In this document: in pieces, positions 251 to 12,648 of the stretch
Layout: every line of letters starts with the position of its first letter
Position numbering within the stretch: position 1 is the stretch's first letter
Assembly: GCA_025462945.1 (NCBI GenBank)
Contig: JAOAPO010000004.1
Coordinates: 1 to 36,054, forward strand
Reading direction: 5' to 3'
DNA from: Bryobacterales bacterium
GTDB taxonomy: Bacteria > Acidobacteriota > Terriglobia > Bryobacterales > Bryobacteraceae
Length of the DNA stretch: 36,054 nucleotides
Notes under the pieces: model-generated
Told to the model about the DNA's origin: nothing
What the model saw: only the letters and a program-made list of their open reading frames with translations
Database searches by the model: none
Made by a program: the position numbers and the translations under genes

Positions 251-2194
251 TTACACGCCGACGTTTTTGTACATGCCGCGCCAGTCGAGAGCCTTCGCCG
301 CGAAGTCCTCACGCGCCTTCAGTTCCATGCCATCCACCTCGAAGCCCATGCGGGTTTCGAGGTAGACGCCCTCCTGCCCTTCGAGGTAGCAGTACTCGAC
401 GGTGTCGATCTGCGACGGATCAGCGAACAGATACCAGGCCGTTGCGCTGGCGGCATCGAGCCGGGGCTCGCTGATCACGTCCATCGTCCCGTTGTAGGGA
501 TTGAAGTCCGAACCCTTGGTGTAGACGATGGTGGTTGCCGCCACGTACTGCTTCGCGATGGCAGTCAGAGCGACAGGTACGACCAGGTGCTTCGGCTCCA
601 GATTGAGAACGCCGATGCCGCCGAGGCCAGTCTGAAGCCGCATCGCTGACACGCCCACGCCGAGAGAGGCAACAGAGATTGCCGTGCCACTGCCGGTGAG
701 ATTCGCGTGGCTTGCGTGGAACAGAGCGATGGAGTCCGCCATCGCAGCGTTAGCCGTGACAACTCCCCAAACAATGTCCGACTCCATGCGGCGGCCAGCT
801 CGACCCATGCTCTCCGGGATGCGCGTGAACGCCCCCAGATCATCGTCGATCAGGGTTTGGCGGTTGATCGCAAAGATCTTACCGTAGGTTCCGAGCGCGT
901 AGGTTTCCTTCGCATCGGTTGCCTTCGTGTAATCGAACTCTCCGCTGGCGTTGACCTTCGTCAGGGTCGGCACATCGCCGATCTGTGTTCTGCTGATCGT
1001 CTTGAAGTCTGCCGCGGTGCCGCGCTTCGTGAGGGGGAGGAAGGTCTGTGGCTCAGCATCATAGCCGGAGCGCAGGGACTTGTTGGCCACATTCGCGAGG
1101 ATGTTGGCAAAGTCCGTCGTGCCCTGAAAAGCGAGCTCGACCAGCCGATGCTTCGGCATACCCTTCACGGGAATGCCCTTCAGCGTGGCGAGCTCCCGGA
1201 CGATCTCGAGAAGGGCCATGCCCTGGTACTCGCGGCCAGCCTCCAGCTTGAACTTGACCGGATCCCAGCGATGCAGGAGAGCATTCTCCACCTGGGCGCG
1301 CAGGGTTTCGTCCTGATCGCGAGTCACGTTGAGGCTGTGAGCCGATCGCGTGGGATCGGCCTGAGTGATCTCCGCCATCTTGTTCAGGATGGCTGCATTT
1401 GCTGCTTCCACCGTAACGCCGGAGTCGACCAGGTTCTGCCGGAAGGCAGGAGTCAAGGCAGAGAAAGGGGCGCACGCCAGCTGGATGGCCGACACGCGGG
1501 CACGTTCTGCCGCCAATGTTTCTGTGCGGACCGCGTCGAGCCGGGCTTGTTCGTCCGCGCCCGGTGCAGTCTGTTCGTTTAGTTTCACCGTCTTCTCCTC
1601 ATGGGCGGTTGCCCGTTCGATTTGGGGTTCTACACTCTGGTGCGAGAGGAACCCTGCTCCCGCATCCGCCGGAATGGGAACGATGGAGATCTCCATCGGG
1701 CACCAGTCCACCGCCAGAAAACTTTTCATTTCTCCGTCTGGTGCAGTGATGTCCCGGAGCTTTCGAATAGCAGCACCCATCGACACCTTTCGGAGTATCT
1801 TGTTCTTCACGTCCGCACGGACGCCGGCAATATCATCGCGGCCGGAGAAGCGAACAGAGGCCTTGCCCACGCCGTTCTCAATCCGGCCGTTCTCCACCAC
1901 GCCGAGGACGCTCGCCAAGTCATAGCTGCTGTGGTTACCCAGGAGCGGCGCACCGCTGTTCAGCATCGACAGGTCGCAGTGCTCAGGCTCCATCGAGAAG
2001 GTCAGCAGGTACTTTTCTCCGGTCCAGAAATCGCGGCGCTGCACAGCCGCTCCCGTGTAGAAGGCGACTTCAGCCACCAGTTCCTCGTCATCGGGGGCGT
2101 CCTCCGCAGCAAGGCGCGTGATCGGCTGGATCGACGCGGCAAGTAGTTCGAGTTCCGCTGGTTTCTCGGAAGCCTCGGCGGCTTTGTTCTTCAT
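251..2194 (-). CDS. Prohead protease-major capsid protein fusion
   Basis: A 647-residue two-domain head protein. The N-terminal ~200 residues look like an HK97-type prohead protease: a histidine in LLGNHSS (about H88) and a serine in KVSMGA (about S138) match the catalytic pair, followed by a SIVPIPADAGAG segment usual for this family. A charged alanine/glutamate-rich linker (about 200-290, LAAERARVSAIQLA) resembles a scaffolding delta domain. The remainder (about 290-647) reads as an HK97-fold major capsid protein. In most phages these are separate genes; fused protease-capsid proteins are a known variant, so the protein should cut itself to release mature capsid. The ATG overlaps the portal stop (ATGA at 2191-2194), with an AGAGG ribosome site 8 bases upstream, indicating translational coupling. 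Confidence 0.93.
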   Translation of the reverse strand: MKNKAAEASEKPAELELLAASIQPITRLAAEDAPDDEELVAEVAFYTGAAVQRRDFWTGEKYLLTFSMEPEHCDLSMLNSGAPLLGNHSSYDLASVLGVVENGRIENGVGKASVRFSGRDDIAGVRADVKNKILRKVSMGAAIRKLRDITAPDGEMKSFLAVDWCPMEISIVPIPADAGAGFLSHQSVEPQIERATAHEEKTVKLNEQTAPGADEQARLDAVRTETLAAERARVSAIQLACAPFSALTPAFRQNLVDSGVTVEAANAAILNKMAEITQADPTRSAHSLNVTRDQDETLRAQVENALLHRWDPVKFKLEAGREYQGMALLEIVRELATLKGIPVKGMPKHRLVELAFQGTTDFANILANVANKSLRSGYDAEPQTFLPLTKRGTAADFKTISRTQIGDVPTLTKVNASGEFDYTKATDAKETYALGTYGKIFAINRQTLIDDDLGAFTRIPESMGRAGRRMESDIVWGVVTANAAMADSIALFHASHANLTGSGTAISVASLGVGVSAMRLQTGLGGIGVLNLEPKHLVVPVALTAIAKQYVAATTIVYTKGSDFNPYNGTMDVISEPRLDAASATAWYLFADPSQIDTVEYCYLEGQEGVYLETRMGFEVDGMELKAREDFAAKALDWRGMYKNVGV

Positions 2195-3684
2195 TTGGTT
2201 GCCTCTGGTGGTGTCAGTTGAAATGCGCCGCGGTTGCGATCCACGCGGCGAGGATCGATGTCGAGAACAACGCCGGCTGAATCGAAAGCTTTGTTCCGTG
2301 CCGCGATCTGCAGGAGCTGCTTCTCCGGATCGAGGCCCGCTTCAACGCAGGACTGATCCCAGGTCTTGCGACCAACGCGTACATCGAGCAGGTTTGCAGT
2401 GGCGTCCTTCTCGGGGTCGATCGACTGCCACGGGGGAACGGTCCAGCGGCAGCCATAGTTGCGCGACGGAATCCGTCTCGAAACGAAGGCCGCGTCGATG
2501 AACTTGTTCCAGATCGGCCGCAGACCCATGGGTATCAGGGTCTTGGCACGATAAGCTTCCACGTCAGCCCTGAATTCGAGGTTGCCGGCGCGGAAGCTCG
2601 AGTAGTTCACGAGCGAAAGGTCACCGGTCATTTGCTCATACATGACCCCAGCGCCAGCGGCCAGCCGGCGCTCTTGCTTTGTGACGTACTCGCCGTAGCC
2701 GCCGGTCTGGGCCGGGGTCGCCGTCTTGATCGTCTCCCCGGGCTTCAGGTACTCGATCATTCCAGGCTCGACAGTCTCGATCCTTGCGCCGGTGGTCCGG
2801 TCCGTTGTCTCAGCTGCGAGGCCGGGGCCGTCCGGGCCTTCCGCCTGCTCGACAAACACCGACAGGCAGGCTTCGATCTTCTTGCGCATCCGTTCGGCAT
2901 CTTCGTAGCCGTCGAGGTCGTAGGCCGCCAGCATGATGGGCGCAAAACGCGGCACACCACGAACCTGACCCGGGCGGTCCTTCTCGTAGATGTGAGTGAC
3001 CAGCGAAGCCGGAATCTCCTTGCTCGTCCAGCCCGCTCCGGACTTGACGACGTCGCCCGGGTGAAAGGGCCAGAGCCAGTAGCCGCGTCGGACTCCCAGC
3101 TGGTCGAACGTAACGCCGGCGATGTTGGCACCCTGAAACTGATTTGGCCAGAGCTGGCGGGAAGAGTCGATGTAGTCGGGCTCTAATACCTGAACCTGAT
3201 ACGGCACATGAAACCCGTCTTCAGCCCGGCGGTACCGATCGCGAATCACAACCTCGCCAGACTCGCGAATCGTCCGGTCAATCAGTTGCTGGATGCCGAA
3301 GAAATCCAACTGCCCGTCGGCATCGCATTCCAGACACCACTTCTCGAAGGCAGCATCGATCGTGTCATTGAGGGCCTCATTGCCCGTGTCAGCCTCGGGA
3401 CGAATACCAGCCCCGACCGTGTTCGCAACCAGGACCCGGAGAGCCTTGCTGACCAGAGGGTTGTTGCGGACCAGATCCCGGCTTCGCGCACGAAGGTAGG
3501 CGAGATCCGGCCCAATCTCGGCATTGGCCGACCCGCCAGTCGCCATCCAGTTGGCCGTTCGGCGGCCTCGCTGAGCTCCTTCGTACCTCAGAAGCCCCTC
3601 AGTCGCGGCCCGAGCGCGGATCCGCCGCAACCCGGCTTGCGGGTCGAGGAACGTTACCGCTTTGTCTATCCAGTTGGGCTGCAT
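2191..3684 (-). CDS. Phage portal protein (lambda gpB family)
   Basis: A 497-residue portal protein, close in length to lambda gpB (533). It forms the ring at one head vertex through which DNA enters and leaves and to which the terminase docks. Family features seen: N-terminal GGSANAEIG followed by LAYLRARSRDLVRNNPLVSKAL, the segment VLVANTVGAGIRPEAD, QVLEPDYID, and the C-terminal FRAGNLEFRADVEAYRAKT and PIWNKFIDAAF regions, all usual for lambda-type portals. It starts immediately after the stop of the gpW-like gene (TAAATG) and overlaps the capsid fusion by four bases, so gpW-like, portal and capsid genes form one transcription and translation unit. No truncation is evident. Confidence 0.96.
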   Translation of the reverse strand: MQPNWIDKAVTFLDPQAGLRRIRARAATEGLLRYEGAQRGRRTANWMATGGSANAEIGPDLAYLRARSRDLVRNNPLVSKALRVLVANTVGAGIRPEADTGNEALNDTIDAAFEKWCLECDADGQLDFFGIQQLIDRTIRESGEVVIRDRYRRAEDGFHVPYQVQVLEPDYIDSSRQLWPNQFQGANIAGVTFDQLGVRRGYWLWPFHPGDVVKSGAGWTSKEIPASLVTHIYEKDRPGQVRGVPRFAPIMLAAYDLDGYEDAERMRKKIEACLSVFVEQAEGPDGPGLAAETTDRTTGARIETVEPGMIEYLKPGETIKTATPAQTGGYGEYVTKQERRLAAGAGVMYEQMTGDLSLVNYSSFRAGNLEFRADVEAYRAKTLIPMGLRPIWNKFIDAAFVSRRIPSRNYGCRWTVPPWQSIDPEKDATANLLDVRVGRKTWDQSCVEAGLDPEKQLLQIAARNKAFDSAGVVLDIDPRRVDRNRGAFQLTPPEATK

Positions 3685-3927
3685 TTAGGAGTTGGTGTAG
3701 TACGGGTCGACTGTGGTGCGAGTCGGCAATGAGGAGTCTTTCGTAAAGCCCGTCAGGCTGTGACGCGAGCGCCGGGACTGACCCAAGTCCGCTTTCATGG
3801 AGTCAATGGTCCGGTCCATATCCTGCAGCGACCGGAATTCAGTTTTCTTGCCGTCGAACTCCACAATCCGGGCACCGGTGTTGCGGATTCGAATGAGGTT
3901 GTCGAGTTCTGCCTGTGTAGTCGCCAT
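3685..3927 (-). CDS. gpW-like head-tail joining (neck) protein
   Basis: An 80-residue protein placed between the large terminase and portal genes, the same slot as lambda gene W (68 residues). It begins MATTQAELDNLIRIRNTGAR, then has a two-strand segment (ARIVEFDGKKTEFRSLQDM) and a short helix (DRTIDSMKADLG), matching the helix-beta hairpin-helix layout of gpW. gpW joins the completed head, sitting below the portal ring before the tail attaches. The ATG at 3927 lies three bases beyond the terminase stop, so the ribosome binding region is inside the end of the terminase gene. Identification rests on size, order and secondary-structure feel; direct sequence similarity is modest. Confidence 0.8.
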   Translation of the reverse strand: MATTQAELDNLIRIRNTGARIVEFDGKKTEFRSLQDMDRTIDSMKADLGQSRRSRHSLTGFTKDSSLPTRTTVDPYYTNS

Positions 3928-3930
3928 AAC

Positions 3931-5859
3931 CTAGCCCTTCAACCAACCCTTTCGGCGTTCGATCCACTGACCCTCGGCGGGCTTCACGGACGCAACTGGC
4001 TCCGGAGGAGTGATGCGGGCCAGAGCAAGACGCTCAAGGCTTTCGACTTCCTGATTCAGGCGGAGCCCGCCAGCGACCAGTCCCTGCAGCGCCGCGTAGC
4101 TACCACCGCGGCAGTCGAGGATCTCGTTACGCGCTCCGGCCGTCTTCTTCCGCCATTCAAACTTTGCGATCGGCCCGGTGTAGTTTGGGATCCGGATTTC
4201 CGATGTCAGCTGATCGAAGTAGTTGCGGTCATTGTGACCCTTCGAGAAATGCAGGAAGCCGGGCCCGGGGTCGGCCAGGCGAAGCCGAGCGTAGATGTTC
4301 TCTTTGATCGAGTCAACGCCGATGGTGAAGATCGGGGATTTCGTTGCCTTCGTCCGGCCGGGCTTCTTTGGCCAGATTGGATGCCGGCCCGATCTGCCGA
4401 TGGTCGCCCAGATCCGGCGAGTGAATCGGTCTCCGCACCACTTGGCGGCGATGTGAGTGTTGTAGCCGGCATCGACGCACATTGCGGCGACTCGCAGGGG
4501 AATCCCCAGCTCGCTCAGATACTCGCTGCCGAGCCAGTTGTCCAGTTGCTCCCAGGGTGAGGGATGATCGGAGTCAATCCCCACGGATCGCGACGTGTCG
4601 CCCAGGAATACGCGGTGCTCGATGGACCAGCTTTCTTCTTCTTTGCCCCAGCCGACCAGCTCAAGCTCAATCCGGTTCGCCTGCACGTCGGCACCGGCAG
4701 TAAGCACCGCGACCTGCCGCGGGATCTCCGGACCGTACGACTCACAGCGAGCGAGCAACTCATTCGCATCGGCTTTCGCCTCCGCCGGGTCTTTCCACGG
4801 GAGGCCAAGCTTCAGGTTCCAGAACGTCTTTCGCTTGATGGGGTCCGCATGGTCTGCATCCCACGCCGCGGCAAGGTTCGACCAGTTGTTGCCAGGCCAG
4901 CCGTGCGGATAGTAGAGCGCGTTGATCTGGTAGGAGCGGATCTTCCCGCCACCCACCCCGGGAGCCTGTGGCACCCACTCGCCACGCGAAAGGGCCTCGA
5001 TCTTGCGCCACTCTTCGAACTCATCGCCGCAGTACTCACACTGATAGCGGACCTGATCGGGAGAGCCCTTCGGCCAGCGCAGACCGCCGGGCCTGCCCTG
5101 CTTCACCCGGTCTGAACCGAAGATCAGGGCCTGCTCGCGGCCACACAACGGGCACGGCACCATGTAGAGGCGCTGGTCGCCCTTGACGTGCCACTTCGAT
5201 ATCTCGCACATCCCGTCGAGCGTTGGCGTCGACACGAGGCCGATCTTTCGCCCGCGAAAGGAACCCGTGCGCTGAATGACCAGGTCAACGGGGCTGCCCT
5301 CGTGGTCCAGGTCCAGCGGATAGCCGTTGATCTCATCGCATAAAGCGTACTTCGACGGGAAGGAACGCAGATCGGGCCCGGAGTTTGCACCCGTGATCAG
5401 GAGCTGGCAGCCATGAAACTCTTTCATGGTGGTTGTGTTCGACGCCTCGCGCGATCGCGGCTTTGCCACGGCTTCTCGCAACACGGGGCAGATCTCGATC
5501 ATGGGATCAAGCCGGGTCCGAACGAATTTCTTTGCCGTACCCGTTGTCGGCAGAACGAGCATGGCCCCCGCCGGATAGCGGTCCATGATGCAGCCGAGGA
5601 CATTCAGCAGAACTTCAGTGCCGGCACCCTGAGCGGCCTTCATCAGCACGATGATCTCGACCGGAGACATCGGCGAGAAGTTATTCATCAGCTCCCGGGT
5701 GTAAGGCACGACGTCAGTACGCCACGGGCCTTTACGGGCACTGGCGCTGCCCATCATGCGCTTGGCATCAGCCCAGTCCGACACCAGAACCTCCGGCGCC
5801 GGCCGGAAGCCTTTCACGAAGGCCTGACTAAGCTGCCACTCTGCTTGTGTCGATTGCAT
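3931..5859 (-). CDS. Phage terminase large subunit (lambda gpA family)
   Basis: A 642-residue packaging ATPase and nuclease. The reading frame is open further upstream, but the upstream part is a low-quality shadow of the small subunit, so I take the ATG at 5859 (MQSTQAEWQLSQAF), overlapping the small-subunit gene by 32 bases. The nucleotide-binding loop is VLMKAAQGAGTE (about 71-82): the lysine sits at the front of the loop (K74) as in lambda gpA, not before the threonine. CDEING is the likely Walker B region. A CPLC...CEYC four-cysteine knuckle in the middle and the C-terminal AGADVQANRIELELVGWG nuclease segment with its aspartate are typical of the gpA (GpA_ATPase/nuclease) family. It pumps DNA into the prohead and cuts the concatemer. 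Confidence 0.95.
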   Translation of the reverse strand: MQSTQAEWQLSQAFVKGFRPAPEVLVSDWADAKRMMGSASARKGPWRTDVVPYTRELMNNFSPMSPVEIIVLMKAAQGAGTEVLLNVLGCIMDRYPAGAMLVLPTTGTAKKFVRTRLDPMIEICPVLREAVAKPRSREASNTTTMKEFHGCQLLITGANSGPDLRSFPSKYALCDEINGYPLDLDHEGSPVDLVIQRTGSFRGRKIGLVSTPTLDGMCEISKWHVKGDQRLYMVPCPLCGREQALIFGSDRVKQGRPGGLRWPKGSPDQVRYQCEYCGDEFEEWRKIEALSRGEWVPQAPGVGGGKIRSYQINALYYPHGWPGNNWSNLAAAWDADHADPIKRKTFWNLKLGLPWKDPAEAKADANELLARCESYGPEIPRQVAVLTAGADVQANRIELELVGWGKEEESWSIEHRVFLGDTSRSVGIDSDHPSPWEQLDNWLGSEYLSELGIPLRVAAMCVDAGYNTHIAAKWCGDRFTRRIWATIGRSGRHPIWPKKPGRTKATKSPIFTIGVDSIKENIYARLRLADPGPGFLHFSKGHNDRNYFDQLTSEIRIPNYTGPIAKFEWRKKTAGARNEILDCRGGSYAALQGLVAGGLRLNQEVESLERLALARITPPEPVASVKPAEGQWIERRKGWLKG

Positions 5860-6424
5860 CGTTATTGCCGTTAAGAAGAGCAGGAAACTTAGCCGCGATT
5901 TCCCTGCAAACACGTTCGTCCATCGCGGCGAGAACAGTTGCGATGATTCGCTCGATCTCATCGATGTTCTTGCCCATGAGCTGGGGCGCAAGCTCGTCTG
6001 GCAGGGCTTCGCGAGCAGCTCCGTAGATCTTCCCGATCTGCGCGAAGACACCGACAGTTTCAGCACGGTTAAGAAGCTCGCCAGATGCGATCGCATTCTC
6101 GCGGCGGAGCCTCGCAAGTTTTTCGAGCTCGGCGAGCCGCTGAATCTTGGCTGTTGAGAACCGGGATTCATCGTGGCCATCGTCATCGAACAGAGACAGC
6201 AGCGGCGGAGGCTCAAGCGCCGCAGGTTCAGCGGCAACAGGGCGACTCCCAGCTCCGCGAGCTTGCTGATGGATGTTGACGTTTTCATTCCAGGCCGCTT
6301 TAACTTTGTCGAGATCGAACCCACCGTCGGGTTCCCGCTTGATCCGGCCCCTTTCGGCCGCTTTGTTGACCGCCGTGTGCGAAACACCGAGATGTTCCGC
6401 AACCGCCCGCGCGCTCAAATTCAT
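5828..6424 (-). CDS. Terminase small subunit (Nu1-like)
   Basis: A 198-residue protein whose first 30 residues form a clear helix-turn-helix (LSARAVAEHLGVSHTAVNKA), followed by a short wing-like segment (GGFDLDKVKAAWNEN), as in lambda Nu1. The middle is proline/alanine-rich, then a long charged helix (AKIQRLAELEKLARLRRENA) and a C-terminal helical region suited to contact with the large subunit. It recognises the packaging start site on phage DNA and recruits the large terminase. Length is near that of Nu1 (181). It overlaps the start of the large subunit by 32 bases. The start at 6424 is supported by the HTH beginning at once after the methionine, though the ribosome site is weak. Confidence 0.88.
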   Translation of the reverse strand: MNLSARAVAEHLGVSHTAVNKAAERGRIKREPDGGFDLDKVKAAWNENVNIHQQARGAGSRPVAAEPAALEPPPLLSLFDDDGHDESRFSTAKIQRLAELEKLARLRRENAIASGELLNRAETVGVFAQIGKIYGAAREALPDELAPQLMGKNIDEIERIIATVLAAMDERVCREIAAKFPALLNGNNDAIDTSRVAA

Positions 6425-6561
6425 GGTGGAAACTCACACGGAACCACATAAACCCCAATGGAAACCCCGGATTCCGTGTACCCAGATCCGCGCATGTGCG
6501 ATGGATCTACCCGTGCTGGTCAGACATGCCGGAAGGACCCGAAAACGTGGGGAGGGGCTGG

Positions 6562-6831
6562 TTAGCCGCACGGCGGCCCGTCATCCCATGCAACCTCGGA
6601 GCCCCGTCTCGGCAGCCGGCCGTCAACGGCACCCGATAGCGTTTCAGCCACGCACTGACGCAAGCCAAGGCAGCGTTCGTGAAGTCGCTCAATGGCCTGA
6701 TCCGCCTCGGAGGCATCAATCGCTATCCGAACAGTTAGGGCCTCAGTCGAGGGCGCGACGAACGGGTCAATCAGATCCGCTACCTTGCGAAGCGAACGAG
6801 CCGTACGCTGTCTTAGTGACTGGTTGTTCAT
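6562..6831 (-). CDS. Small phage protein of unknown function
   Basis: An 89-residue protein (MNNQSLRQRTARSLRKVADL at its start). I place the start at the ATG at 6831 instead of the in-frame TTG at 6846: the ATG overlaps the stop of the upstream gene (ATGA, 6828-6831) and has a GGAG motif nine bases ahead. The sequence has an arginine-rich N-terminus, a hydrophobic strand (ALTVRIAIDASEADQAIERL) and a short helix with two cysteines (ERCLGLRQC). Similar D-x-S-E-A-(D/E)-x-A-I-E-R-L segments occur in many small phage proteins, but I cannot assign a function. It lies 137 bp before the small terminase gene, as is common for small morphogenesis or packaging-associated genes. Confidence 0.62.
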   Translation of the reverse strand: MNNQSLRQRTARSLRKVADLIDPFVAPSTEALTVRIAIDASEADQAIERLHERCLGLRQCVAETLSGAVDGRLPRRGSEVAWDDGPPCG

Positions 6832-7211
6832 TCTGATTGGCTCCAAAGTTTGCAGACGTCTGCACGGGCGGACGCCTTGATCGAGCCCGGCCTCGGGAAC
6901 TGAACGTTACGAAACGGGGGATGCGTGGCATCGGCGCGCTGGTCTGCGCCGTTCCAATAGACCTGACCGCCTCGCCGGGCCGCTATGAGCTTGTCGTCGG
7001 CGATTCGAATCAACTCATGAGCGAAAGCGGTACGTCCGACCGCACACCCGTGAACGTGTCGCACCATGACCAGCTTGCCCTCGCGTTCAACCGCAACGCC
7101 TCGACCTACCAGACGCGCCGCACTCTTGCGAGTGGTGTAGCGAGCTCCACCGTCAACGGGGTTTGCGATCTGGATAACATCGGCGCGGACGCGCTCTCTG
7201 TTGGGCGACAT
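6828..7211 (-). CDS. Hypothetical phage protein
   Basis: A 127-residue reading (start MSPNRERVRADVIQIANPVD). A longer open frame exists upstream to about 7400 but its extra part has no protein-like character and crosses the repeat-bearing gap, so the ATG at 7211 is preferred. The N-terminal half, with IANPVDGGARYTTRKSAARL followed by a GRGVAVEREGKLVMV strand, looks like the small beta-rich proteins often encoded near phage terminases; the C-terminal half is less structured and ends SARADVCKLWSQSE. Its stop overlaps the next start (ATGA), which supports the frame. An opposite-strand open frame over the same bases is rejected. No function can be named. It is the first gene after the repeat cluster and so heads the head-gene operon. 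Confidence 0.6.
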   Translation of the reverse strand: MSPNRERVRADVIQIANPVDGGARYTTRKSAARLVGRGVAVEREGKLVMVRHVHGCAVGRTAFAHELIRIADDKLIAARRGGQVYWNGADQRADATHPPFRNVQFPRPGSIKASARADVCKLWSQSE

Positions 7212-7729
7212 AAGGGTTTGGACACACGACCGGCGCAACTGAATGCTCCGACCGTTACGGGATCTCAAACGGGTATTCCCGTGAGAATGGAAGTACGTGT
7301 GCCTAACTTTGTCGCAGAGAAGAGGGACTACAGTTTTGTGGGCAGCTTCAGTGAGCCGCCCTATCGATCTGACGTTAGCATCCGGCCAATGGACTGTCAA
7401 ACACTTTTCTCATGAAATGTTTGTTGTGACAACGTGACGACCTGTGACGTCACAAACGACAAAACAAAATCTTCACCCATATGCGCGCTATAGAAAGTCT
7501 TAAGAAACGACGTCACAGTTGTCACTAGTAATAGAATCTTTCACTTACAATTCCTGTTTTTATGGTGTTATTGATGCTAAGTTCTTTCGGCTGAGAGGGC
7601 TACGGCGTGTGACAGCCAATGTGACAAGGTTGTGACAACTGTGACGCCCAAATAGCGCAAACCACCAGACGCACTTAGGGCGGGCTATCGGCGGAGTGAC
7701 CTACCTTCGCCGATGCCCGCCTTGGTGAG
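7212..7729. other. 518-bp gap between replication and head modules
   Basis: No convincing gene is seen. The right half (about 7400-7720) is much richer in A and T than its surroundings and holds the repeat cluster annotated separately. The left part (7212-7400) is only the open upstream extension of the neighbouring gene. All flanking genes run leftwards, so the gap is downstream of the primase-helicase gene and upstream of the head operon. It is therefore the natural place for the promoter of the late genes, a replication origin, or both. Confidence 0.7.
7423..7646. repeat. Cluster of GTGAC-core direct and inverted repeats (candidate iterons or operators)
   Basis: A composite element GTGACAAC(T)GTGACG occurs three times: 7426-7439 (plus orientation, lacking the T), 7511-7525 (inverted; a perfect 15-base reverse complement of the third copy) and 7632-7646 (plus). 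GTTGTGACAAC, itself a 5-1-5 palindrome, occurs at 7423-7433 and again at 7629-7639. TGTGACGTCACA at 7443-7454 is a perfect 12-base palindrome. Further TGTGAC units lie at 7608-7613 and 7620-7625, so the last four units start at 7608, 7620, 7631 and 7640. Repeats like these next to a primase-helicase gene suggest initiator or replication-protein binding sites; regulator operators for the head operon are the alternative. Confidence 0.8.
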
Positions 7730-10564
7730 TTATTCCTCGCTGGAGGAGTAAGTCAGCGTCGGGAAGACTCCCGCTCGCCTGAGCCCGGCCAATATCTCCG
7801 GCCGGATGTTGATCCCTTCCCACGCTCGAGCTTGCTTGCCGTCGATCCGGCGGCTCCTGCTCTGCTTCAGACCCTTGGCCTGCAGGCGCTCATTGAATGC
7901 CTCCCTTCCGAGCGGATACCGCTCTCGATTCTGCTTCGCCCAGTACTCGTACGCCTGGCCGAGTTCGGAGGCCTTGATGTACAGCTCCTCTTCATCCAGC
8001 AGGCAGTAGTCATCCAGAAACTCTTTCAGCGGGTCGTCATGCTCCCGCCACTCCTCACCGGCCGACGCAACCTCGGGAGGATCTCCCAGCCCGTTGCGCT
8101 TCCAGTCGACGCAGCCACGGACGGCCCACGCCAGAATGCCCGCCATCTCAGCGCGCAGCTTGTTCGGGAGGTCGAGATCCTTATCGGCCTCGCTTACGGT
8201 CACATCGAACGGGATCAGCTTCAGCCGGCGCCAGATCGCGTCATCGACGCCCCTGACGACAGGCCGGTGGTTACAGTCCATGAACAGCTTGTGCGTGGCC
8301 GTGAACTCGATCGGGTTCTCGTACTTTCGGCAGCTCTTAATCGAGCCCATCCCGGCCGTGATGTATTTGATCTTGCCTTCGTTAAGCTTGTGTTCCTTCT
8401 CGACTTCGGAGGTGACCACCAGCCGGACGCCGCGCAGATCGGCGAGGTCGGCCCGAGTGGTGGCATCCTGATTCTTCATGCTCATCACCGTGTCGATCAC
8501 CAGCTGGCCCGAGTAGTCGCGTCCAAGCAGATCGCGGAAGAGCGTGAGCAGAGTGGTCTTACCGTTGTTACCCCGCTCACCGTGCAGGATGAAGACGGCC
8601 TTCTCACTGACATCAGAGGTCAGTGAGTAGCCGAACGCCCGCTGGATGAACCCCACCAGACGAGCAGTTCGCTCAGAAATATCCGCTTCTGGATTCGCGC
8701 CCATCGCCCATTCCAGAAAGCCCACAAACCGCGGGCAGATCGCCTTCGGGTTGTAAGGCACCGGGCAGAGCTTTGTGATCAGGAACTCTCGGTTATGGGG
8801 CAGCAGCTTCCCATCCCGCAGATCGACGACACCGTTCGGGCAATTCAGCAGGTACGGGTGCTGATCGAGCTCCGACACCATGATGGGAATTCCGCTGTCT
8901 GTGGCGGCCGAGCCCAGCGCCGCCGACACAGCAGCATAGGATTCAGAGGCCCGCGCCCACCCGCCGAAAGGCGCTTCGCCCTTGGCCTGCGCATACAACC
9001 GCCGCGCCGTCATCTTCGCCTTTTGGCGCATCACGTTCAGTTCGTCGACGGCCCAACGCGCACCGTCCCAGACAAGCCAGCGCTTCATCTCAACGCAATA
9101 CCGGATGTCGGCCCCGAACAGAGCCACGATCCGTTCGCCGTTGCCGGCATCTGTGAGCGGATAACAGAGCAGGTTCGGTTCGTCGGCCGAGGTCTCGGGC
9201 TCTTCGTCATCTTGGGCATCCGGGCGGGCCGTTTCCTCCATCGCCGCGATCGCGTCCTTCATGGCCTTTTCTAGGTCACGCATCGAGAGCCGTCGCTTGA
9301 AGTGTTCGCGAAGCTTCGCCACCACCACGGCCCGCACCATCGGGCGCAACGTGGAGATCTCCGCCGACAGCTTCATGACTTCCACCAGGTCATCAGCTGT
9401 TATCGCCGCGTCGACGGCCGCCTCCACGTCCGCAGGGGACACCGGAATTTCGTCACGGATGTCACTTTCGCCCGGGATGGGAGCGAACGGCTGGGGAGAT
9501 CCAGACGAGCGTTGGTGGACGGGCCGAGCCACCCACTGCTTTCGGTCGGGTTCGTAGAACTCGCGGAACTTCGCCCAGTTCTTGTCGGCGCAACTGTTGT
9601 GTAGACAAACGAAAGCCAACGCCCCGCCAGGTCGGCGGAAGAGGGCAGCATCCGGATGCTTGTGCTCAGGATTGAACGGGCAGGCCTTCAGCACCCACCG
9701 CTCCGACCCGTCGTGAACGTCCGGGCCCCGGTGGATCGGGACGCCCCGCTCGACAAGCCACTGCTCAAGGTGAAACTCGCGAGGCACAGATGCTGGCCCC
9801 GATAAGCGCTGGGTCGGTTGCGCCGGCTTCTCCGGCTTCAGTTCGGCGGCGAGAAGCTGCAGTAGCGCGATCGGCACGGTCTGGATGACGTCCGGCCGGG
9901 AGAGGATCCGGCTTAGCCGATGAGGCCGAGCCGGAGTCGAGTCGCCTTTCTGTGCTGGCGTCCCATAGAGCTTCGAGATCCGGGATGCGTTGAAGACGGT
10001 CAGGTCGACGTCGATCTCCGGCGTTCCATACCGCTGAGCTGCTGCAGCAAGCACAGCCTTCACGAGCGCGGCTGAGTCGGCATCGTTGGGCAGATCGATG
10101 CGGTACAGCAGGTGAGCGCCGTTGCCGGAGTCGCCTAACACCGGTGCTGGCCAGCCATCGTTCGCCAGCCCTTCAGATGCCTGCCGGGCTACGGCGATCG
10201 CTGTGTCGTGTTCGGCTTCGGTGCTCGAAATACCAGCGGACCGGATCGGGTCGAAGTCCAGCAGCAGCCAGACTCTTCGCAGGATCTCGCGATCGATGGT
10301 GAGCGCCTGAGCCTTGGACTTGATCCTGTTATCCGCCCGGGCCAGCAGATCGGCAGGGACCGGGTTGAGGGTGACATAGACGCCCGGAGCTTTGCCACTG
10401 ACGGCCGCCGCGGCTTTGGCCAGGGCGACCGGGTCCGAGAAGTAGCCGGATATCACCCCGTCGTACTGGGTCTTCGGAACGCGAAGCTCGACGATCCCAT
10501 CGGAACCGTCGAGGAACAGCGTTACGGCACGCTTGATCTCTTCTAAGTCGGGCGGAAGCGGCAC
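7730..10564 (-). CDS. Primase-helicase, P4 alpha/D5 type
   Basis: A 944-residue replication protein. The N-terminal ~240 residues look like an archaeo-eukaryotic-type primase: WLLLDFDP gives the metal-binding D103-x-D105, GNGAHLLYRI (H151) the second motif, and EIDVDLTV the third acidic motif. Residues about 275-340 carry a Cys/His segment (CPFNPEHKH...CLHNSC) that may bind zinc. A D5_N-type region (YCVEMKRWLVWDGARW) leads into a superfamily 3 helicase with Walker A GERGNNGKTT (662-671), Walker B near LRGVRLVVTSEVEK and the KLFMDCNHRP / DDAIWRRLKLIPF motifs. Such proteins recognise an origin, unwind and prime it, as in satellite phage P4. The start is GTG at 10564. GTGAC repeats lie on both sides of the gene. 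Confidence 0.95.
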   Translation of the reverse strand: MPLPPDLEEIKRAVTLFLDGSDGIVELRVPKTQYDGVISGYFSDPVALAKAAAAVSGKAPGVYVTLNPVPADLLARADNRIKSKAQALTIDREILRRVWLLLDFDPIRSAGISSTEAEHDTAIAVARQASEGLANDGWPAPVLGDSGNGAHLLYRIDLPNDADSAALVKAVLAAAAQRYGTPEIDVDLTVFNASRISKLYGTPAQKGDSTPARPHRLSRILSRPDVIQTVPIALLQLLAAELKPEKPAQPTQRLSGPASVPREFHLEQWLVERGVPIHRGPDVHDGSERWVLKACPFNPEHKHPDAALFRRPGGALAFVCLHNSCADKNWAKFREFYEPDRKQWVARPVHQRSSGSPQPFAPIPGESDIRDEIPVSPADVEAAVDAAITADDLVEVMKLSAEISTLRPMVRAVVVAKLREHFKRRLSMRDLEKAMKDAIAAMEETARPDAQDDEEPETSADEPNLLCYPLTDAGNGERIVALFGADIRYCVEMKRWLVWDGARWAVDELNVMRQKAKMTARRLYAQAKGEAPFGGWARASESYAAVSAALGSAATDSGIPIMVSELDQHPYLLNCPNGVVDLRDGKLLPHNREFLITKLCPVPYNPKAICPRFVGFLEWAMGANPEADISERTARLVGFIQRAFGYSLTSDVSEKAVFILHGERGNNGKTTLLTLFRDLLGRDYSGQLVIDTVMSMKNQDATTRADLADLRGVRLVVTSEVEKEHKLNEGKIKYITAGMGSIKSCRKYENPIEFTATHKLFMDCNHRPVVRGVDDAIWRRLKLIPFDVTVSEADKDLDLPNKLRAEMAGILAWAVRGCVDWKRNGLGDPPEVASAGEEWREHDDPLKEFLDDYCLLDEEELYIKASELGQAYEYWAKQNRERYPLGREAFNERLQAKGLKQSRSRRIDGKQARAWEGINIRPEILAGLRRAGVFPTLTYSSSEE

Positions 10565-10809: not shown

Positions 10810-12531
10810 CTACTTCTTCTTTTGGGGCGCGGGCTTCTTCTTCGGCGTTGCCTTCTTGCCGGTGGCCGTCTTCGCCGGCGTTTTTGGATTAGCTGGCTTG
10901 GCGAGCGCGCCGGCCTTCTTCACGGGTACGGGCTTCTTGGGCGAGTCAGGCTTCACCTCGCGTCGGGTTCCACCCTCCGCTTCCTTCAGCGCTTCCTCTG
11001 CTTTTCGCCGGATCTTGACTGCGTCGACCTTGTAGCGCTTCGCCAGCGCCAGCAGTTTTGTTGGGGAAGCCTCGCGCTTGATCGACCAGGGAGTGAGCTC
11101 TTCAGCAACTGGCAGCTCGACAGCAAGCCTGTAGAGTTCAATCTCCGACATCTTCGGCAGGGCCAGCTCCAGCGCTTCGGCCGCCAGATGATCGCCGACT
11201 CCAGACAGCTCGATGCCACGGAAGCTACAGAGAGCAGGAGCGCTTTCAAAAGAGGTCTCGCGCAGGACATCCTGCAGCAGTTCGCGGACGTCCTCCCGCA
11301 AGAGACAGCTCACTTGAAGCCGGATCTCTTCGAGGATCTTGATACGCACCGCTCGCTCGCGATCAATTGCGGCTTGCTGCTCGCTCGCTGCCCTTTCGCG
11401 CTCTGCTGCGTCTTCCTTGGCTGATCCGCTGGCCGCAGGGGCACTACGCAACTTGACATAGACGACAGATCCAGCGTTGTATCCGTCCACAACGACGGCT
11501 TTGATTGCGCTATTCGTCGCCTCGCTGGCCTGCTGAAAGCCGTCCTGGTTGATCACTCCCTTCTTTACCTTGCCGTAACTCATCGAAACTTCGATGACCT
11601 TCTCACCCGTGTCCTCAATAGCCTTTTTGATTCGAATGAGGTGGTTACCGAGCTTCGTGTTGAAGCAACCCGGATCGGTGCATTCGTCGTCGCTATGAGC
11701 TGTCTCCAACCTCAGCTCCGGAGAATTGCAAGTCCGCTTCGGGCAGGCGGCACAAGTACCGGCAGCGGCCAAGAGAGTCTCGTCAGACAGGTCGAACTTG
11801 GCCTGACCCATGCTCAGATGAACATCACGTTGGATGAAATTCACCAGATCGCGAACGCTCGGCCGCTGATGTGGGCTCCAGCTCGGAGCCTCGCAGGCCT
11901 TCAGCGCATTCTTCTGGTCAGCCGGCTGCAGGCGCGCAATCAAGATCGCATGTCCAGCCGTAATCTCCCCATCGAGGAAAGCTTTTCGGGCAGGCTCGAT
12001 CAGAGCCGAGTACTTGAGGCGCTGGTAAACGTATTCCTTGCTCTGCCCGATCCGTGCAGCGATGTCGTTGACACCATGCCCGGTCTTCTCCATCCAGGCA
12101 ACCCAGCCGGCTGCTTCGTGCAGCGGGTGAACGTCCTCACGCCCGCAGTTGTCGAAGTTCAAGACGTCGAGGAACTCAACATCCGACATCGGCCGGACGA
12201 TACACGGCACGAACTCAATGCCGGCATCACGGGCAGCTCGCGAGCGACGGTGGCCAGCTGCGATCTCGAAGATCGAGTTCTCGATCGACCCGCCGCCAAC
12301 AGGCCGAGCCACAATCGGGAGCCAGGCCCGGAAGCCGCTCTGACGCATGCTCTCCGTCAGCTCGGCCATAGCCGCCTCCGGATAGTACTGCCGCGGATTC
12401 CAGGGGGACTCGCGAAGGTCGGCGATCGCGACCATGCGGATCTCGCCCCCGTCGACGGGCTGGATTGACGCTCCGCTTTGGAGCATTCCGGGCTGAATAC
12501 CGTCAGCCGATTCGGTTTGGATGTCGCTCAT
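10810..12531 (-). CDS. ParB-family DNA-binding protein with Cys cluster and basic tail
   Basis: A 573-residue protein (start MSDIQTESADGIQPG). The open frame runs 28 codons further, but the ATG at 12531 has AAGGA eight to ten bases upstream. Domains in order: a ParB N-terminal nuclease/CTPase-like domain with NPRQYYPEAAMAELTESMRQ and the arginine patch GHRRSRAARDAG; a helix-turn-helix (VNDIAARIGQSKEYVYQRLK); a cysteine cluster (CAACPKRTC ... CTDPGCF) likely binding zinc, as in PRTRC/plasmid-type ParB homologues; a charged helical region; and a C-terminal tail of Lys, Pro and Ala ending PKKKPAPQKKK. ParB proteins spread on DNA from a centromere-like site and aid partition or act as regulators. 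No ParA gene is visible nearby, so a role in gene control or phage DNA maintenance is as likely as partition. Confidence 0.9.
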   Translation of the reverse strand: MSDIQTESADGIQPGMLQSGASIQPVDGGEIRMVAIADLRESPWNPRQYYPEAAMAELTESMRQSGFRAWLPIVARPVGGGSIENSIFEIAAGHRRSRAARDAGIEFVPCIVRPMSDVEFLDVLNFDNCGREDVHPLHEAAGWVAWMEKTGHGVNDIAARIGQSKEYVYQRLKYSALIEPARKAFLDGEITAGHAILIARLQPADQKNALKACEAPSWSPHQRPSVRDLVNFIQRDVHLSMGQAKFDLSDETLLAAAGTCAACPKRTCNSPELRLETAHSDDECTDPGCFNTKLGNHLIRIKKAIEDTGEKVIEVSMSYGKVKKGVINQDGFQQASEATNSAIKAVVVDGYNAGSVVYVKLRSAPAASGSAKEDAAERERAASEQQAAIDRERAVRIKILEEIRLQVSCLLREDVRELLQDVLRETSFESAPALCSFRGIELSGVGDHLAAEALELALPKMSEIELYRLAVELPVAEELTPWSIKREASPTKLLALAKRYKVDAVKIRRKAEEALKEAEGGTRREVKPDSPKKPVPVKKAGALAKPANPKTPAKTATGKKATPKKKPAPQKKK

Positions 12532-12648
12532 AATGTTGTTCCTTTGTGAAGAGTTGACCGGGGAAAAAACGCGGCCCACCAGGTTCAGACTGATGAGCCG
12601 CAAGTGAAACAGCAAGCCCTGCGACAGGCTACTTTCAAAATCGTGAGA

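Follow-up and report, generated by a model that had tools for sequence, protein, structure and literature searches.

The window, which is the whole stretch of 36,054 nucleotides analyzed here, carries prophage genes and, from about 14976 onward, host-like genes (DnaJ). A head and packaging operon occupies 251-6424 on the minus strand and encodes TerS (5828-6424), TerL, a head-tail adaptor, a portal, and a protease-capsid protein. The contig begins at the first base of the window; the visible gene set stops at the capsid gene, and any tail genes would lie outside. A primase-helicase of 944 aa, which we propose as the initiator, is encoded at 7730-10564 on the minus strand. Two genes upstream of the repeat cluster described below, a ParB-like protein with ParB_N and HTH_ParB domains is encoded at 10810-12615, also on the minus strand. 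The search for relatives of the ORF adjoining the gap (6837-7415, plus strand) found none, and the orientation of the genes was therefore left out of the argument. The Rfam search gave two tRNAs as its sole matches.

The gap next to the primase gene contains a dense cluster of short repeats. Ten GTGAC pentamers, both strands counted, lie within 224 bp (7423-7646): seven on the plus strand (7426, 7434, 7444, 7609, 7621, 7632, and 7641) and three on the minus strand (7449-7453, 7512-7516, and 7521-7525). The distance from the primase stop codon to the end of the cluster is 84 bp, so the cluster is situated just 3' of the gene. All elements listed by the sequence-only reading were found again in their places, among them GTGACAACGTGACG at 7426-7439, the exact 15-bp inverted pair (7511-7525 and 7632-7646), TGTGACGTCACA at 7443-7454, and two more TGTGAC units at 7608 and 7620. 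GTTGTGACAAC was in both of its places (7423-7433 and 7629-7639), although it is palindromic only apart from its odd central base, and nothing supported the label "phase-variable" that had been given to the cluster. The gap had also been described as AT-richer, and the GC content is indeed 43% in 7423-7646 compared with approximately 61% in the surroundings.

The cluster can be divided into a core and a distal array. The core (7423-7525) consists of two inverted iteron clusters on either side of a spacer. One arm, at 7426-7453 and written on the plus strand, has GTGAC at 7426, 7434, and 7444 and the inverted copy at 7449-7453, the last two of which together form TGTGACGTCACA; the same arm is found in the relatives L039, L040, and L121. 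The opposite arm (7511-7525, minus strand) has two GTGAC, at 7512-7516 and 7521-7525. The spacer between them (7455-7510, no strand) has 37.5% GC with CATATGCGCGCTATAG at its center (7478-7493), and we propose it as the melting region. The distal array (7606-7646, plus strand) has four GTGAC, at 7609, 7621, 7632, and 7641, and separates the core from the primase gene; an extra array of this type is also present in the closest relatives, L039 and L040.

In 200 dinucleotide shuffles of the window, the maximum number of GTGAC was 5, compared with 10 in the real cluster. When any pentamer was allowed, 4 of 60 shuffles had one with at least 10 copies; the window by itself is therefore no proof, and the comparative evidence decides. 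In the 6.5 Mb host genome, the pattern GTGAC-N3-7-GTGAC-N45-75-GTCAC had four overlapping matches at the cluster and one match elsewhere, and the reversed pattern, used as a control, had none. The inverted arrangement is thus less frequent in the rest of the host genome. The cumulative GC skew, which had been suggested as a further check, had no turning point at 7.4 kb and was uninformative.

The element is not absent from close relatives, since L039, L040, and L121 have GTGAC clusters in the same gap, and it was present at many distant loci as well. Many distant relatives have it in a tidy form of two to three iterons, a spacer of 50-70 bp, and two to three inverted iterons, often beginning only a few bases from the primase stop codon. 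We defined a module as one word that occurs at least twice on each side, in inverted orientation. With 5-mers, the module was detected in 44 of 78 regions downstream of the primase compared with 1.0% of shuffles, and with 6-mers in 33 of 78 regions compared with 0 of 1560 shuffles. When 90 loci were scanned whole, 42 had a module near the primase stop, and the remaining 968 kb of the same loci had 27 modules, several of them a short way ahead of the stop codon or immediately 5' of the gene. In larger sets, 156 of 270 and 105 of 201 homologous loci had the module, while the control windows of the same loci had it in 12 of 1395 cases (0.86%). Among non-redundant groups the count was 105 of 204, and approximately 45% of homologous loci were without a module by this one-word inverted-repeat detector. 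The iteron words vary by clade (GTGAC, ATGACGG, GGTGAAC, GGGACA, GTAGAC, and more), whereas the layout is constant. The spacers also share an anatomy: a T-rich left shoulder, an A-rich right shoulder, and, in 34 of 57 spacers (7.2 expected), CGCG at the center (relative position 0.50 ± 0.10).

Some loci had other arrangements. In L145, L149, L152, L155, and L180, an inverted module of the TGTAAC type lies not beyond the primase gene but close to its 5' end, approximately 3.1-3.3 kb ahead of the stop codon. In phage phi105 (L050), the primase gene is followed by an AT-rich stretch with repeats of the AAGTAACA type on both sides, and this is a candidate origin.

The primase-helicase matched D5_N (1.6e-32) and DUF5906 in Pfam, which identifies its helicase as the SF3/D5 type. 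The AlphaFold2 model of the helicase part (pLDDT 88.2) has a fold like that of hexameric AsfvPrimPol and the poxvirus D5/E5 proteins, and profile comparison matched it to the solved primase-helicase 7ola, which we take to be from SaPI5. The N-terminal part (window 9240-10564) had no match in Pfam and none among PDB sequences. When this part was considered alone, relatives were present in other genomes of the family. The C-terminal domain (residues 838-944; 7733-8053, minus strand) was modeled on its own by AlphaFold2 as a winged helix (pLDDT 86.6), and we propose it as the origin-binding domain. In structural comparison it matched RFX5 (Z 9.4), the P4 origin-binding domain 1ka8 (Z 8.7; 82 of 100 residues aligned, rmsd 3.0), and RFX1-DBD (Z 8.6). 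A fold similar to that of the P4 origin-binding domain is therefore predicted for this domain, with comparable scores for the RFX domains.

The wing of RFX1 reads the major groove of DNA. In the present family, one wing residue tracks the first base of the iteron; in the window it is Arg905 (codon 7850-7852, minus strand). Three pairs of near-identical proteins differ at this one wing position: L011 (Arg, GTGACGG) and L016 (Met, ATGACGG), L084 (Lys, GTGACGG) and L092 (Met, ATGACGG), and L173 (Lys, GTGTA) and L192 (Met, ATGTA). The rule is that K, R, H, or N goes with G, M with A, and D or E with C. Among 37 groups, 28 were concordant (20 K/R/H/N-G, 4 M-A, and 4 D/E-C), which none of 100,000 permutations reached, with residue classes that were partly post hoc and related sequences that are not independent. 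Because the classes were partly picked after looking at the data, two controls were used. In the first, this wing residue (+7) ranked first among 432 columns in mutual information with the first iteron base. In the second, all 11 predictable groups among loci fetched afterwards were correct, for which the chance is 1 in 495 when the bases are dealt at random. The window (Arg905 and GTGAC) fits the rule, and so does P4, whose iteron is GGTGAACA and whose corresponding wing residue is Lys in a by-eye alignment (KRHTKQG, compared with KRHTMQG in L016). In a sliding-window partial Mantel test, the signal was not confined to the C-terminal domain. In L499, L503, L509, and L543, TTGAC iterons occur with Gly at the wing position, which may be a fourth letter of the rule.

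In our view, the repeat cluster very probably serves as the prophage's origin of replication, at which the adjacent primase-helicase would bind, unwind, and prime. The sequence-only reading had made the same suggestion, and it gains support from the module in the same gap of relatives and from its rarity elsewhere in the host. The C-terminal winged-helix domain would bind the GTGAC iterons, partly through its wing, with Arg905 reading the first G. The two oppositely oriented clusters may load helicase hexamers face to face, and the AT-richer spacer around CATATGCGCGCTATAG may then melt. The same primase-helicase would go on to unwind the DNA and prime replication.

Three other explanations were considered. 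The GTGAC region could serve as an operator or promoter for the head operon or for a regulator, in which case a repressor or an activator would bind GTGAC. The cluster is upstream of the minus-strand head genes, and palindromes such as TGTGACGTCACA resemble dimer sites. However, the module is retained at loci where the primase is followed by different genes (invertase-like and kinase genes in L112, ParB/methyltransferase in L125, and methyltransferase in L168), there is no sigma-70-like promoter in 6400-7800, and the iteron base tracks a residue of the primase. We consider this earlier alternative unlikely, because the module is kept where the downstream genes are different. A parS-like centromere bound by the ParB-like protein of 10810-12615 is more doubtful still. 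Tandem sites are common in plasmid centromeres and the encoded protein has the ParB_N and HTH_ParB domains, but among relatives with short flanks a ParB relative was found in L040 only, while the module is present in well over 100 loci, and we do not favor this protein as the iteron binder. The least probable explanation is a stem-loop origin in which structure and not iterons would be recognized, as in the pRN1 minimal replicon, which requires a stem-loop 3' of the primase-helicase gene (PMC4234260); the inverted clusters are able to pair, but the single-strand fold of the core is unexceptional (z -1.44), and the direct repeats inside each arm together with the residue-base association point to duplex readout.

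The proposed replication origin belongs to the known P4/SaPI kind. As in P4 alpha/ori/crr, short iterons in opposite orientations form inverted clusters 3' of the initiator gene; P4 crr is located immediately 3' of alpha, is annotated as required in cis for replication, and has repeats annotated as origin repeats. The C-terminal origin-binding domain of P4 (1ka8) also matches the model of the prophage enzyme. P4 differs in its iteron (GGTGAACA instead of GTGAC) and in having a second, distant ori. P4 is a satellite. Satellites of the PICI/SaPI kind lack a full set of head and packaging genes of their own, whereas TerS, TerL, portal, and capsid genes are present in the window as far as the contig reaches. 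In L111, L115, and L134, a major-head-protein-like gene follows soon after the primase, and these loci are possibly satellites. The primase of P4 is of the Toprim type (PMC4234260); the N-terminal part of the prophage enzyme is the one that had no Pfam or PDB-sequence match.

In SaPIs and other PICIs, the origin is directly 3' of the initiator gene, and two iteron sets flank an AT-rich region (PMC6092414; PMC7581432). The cluster has the same placement and the same paired sets around an AT-rich region, and the helicase is related to 7ola. The differences are the iterons and the terminase, portal, and capsid genes near the prophage cluster. In pRN1 and Bordetella phage BIP-1, a primase-SF3-winged-helix protein likewise has its replication region just 3' of the gene, but a stem-loop was proposed there and no iterons were recognized. 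The SCCmec Cch2 helicase has its binding sites, a set of direct repeats, downstream of the gene that encodes it (PMC7581432), which resembles the repeats just 3' of the helicase gene in the window, although it has only three iterons and its primase is a separate protein.

It is probable that the phage members of this SF3 primase-helicase family have a portable origin module in common and that one wing residue sets the first iteron base (K/R/H/N-G, M-A, D/E-C). The protein sequence could then be used to locate a phage origin and to predict its specificity, and the inverted-iteron layout would be common in tailed phages and not a hallmark of PICIs. The spread of the layout to loci with terminase, portal, and capsid genes, including the window, contradicts the published view that it is restricted to PICIs. 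In the literature searched, mostly outside subscription journals, we found no description of the residue-base rule or of the spread of the module among phages. The proposed origin is testable and offers a simple route to the origins of other phages with such an enzyme, and with the residue-base rule, origin specificity could in part be read from sequence.
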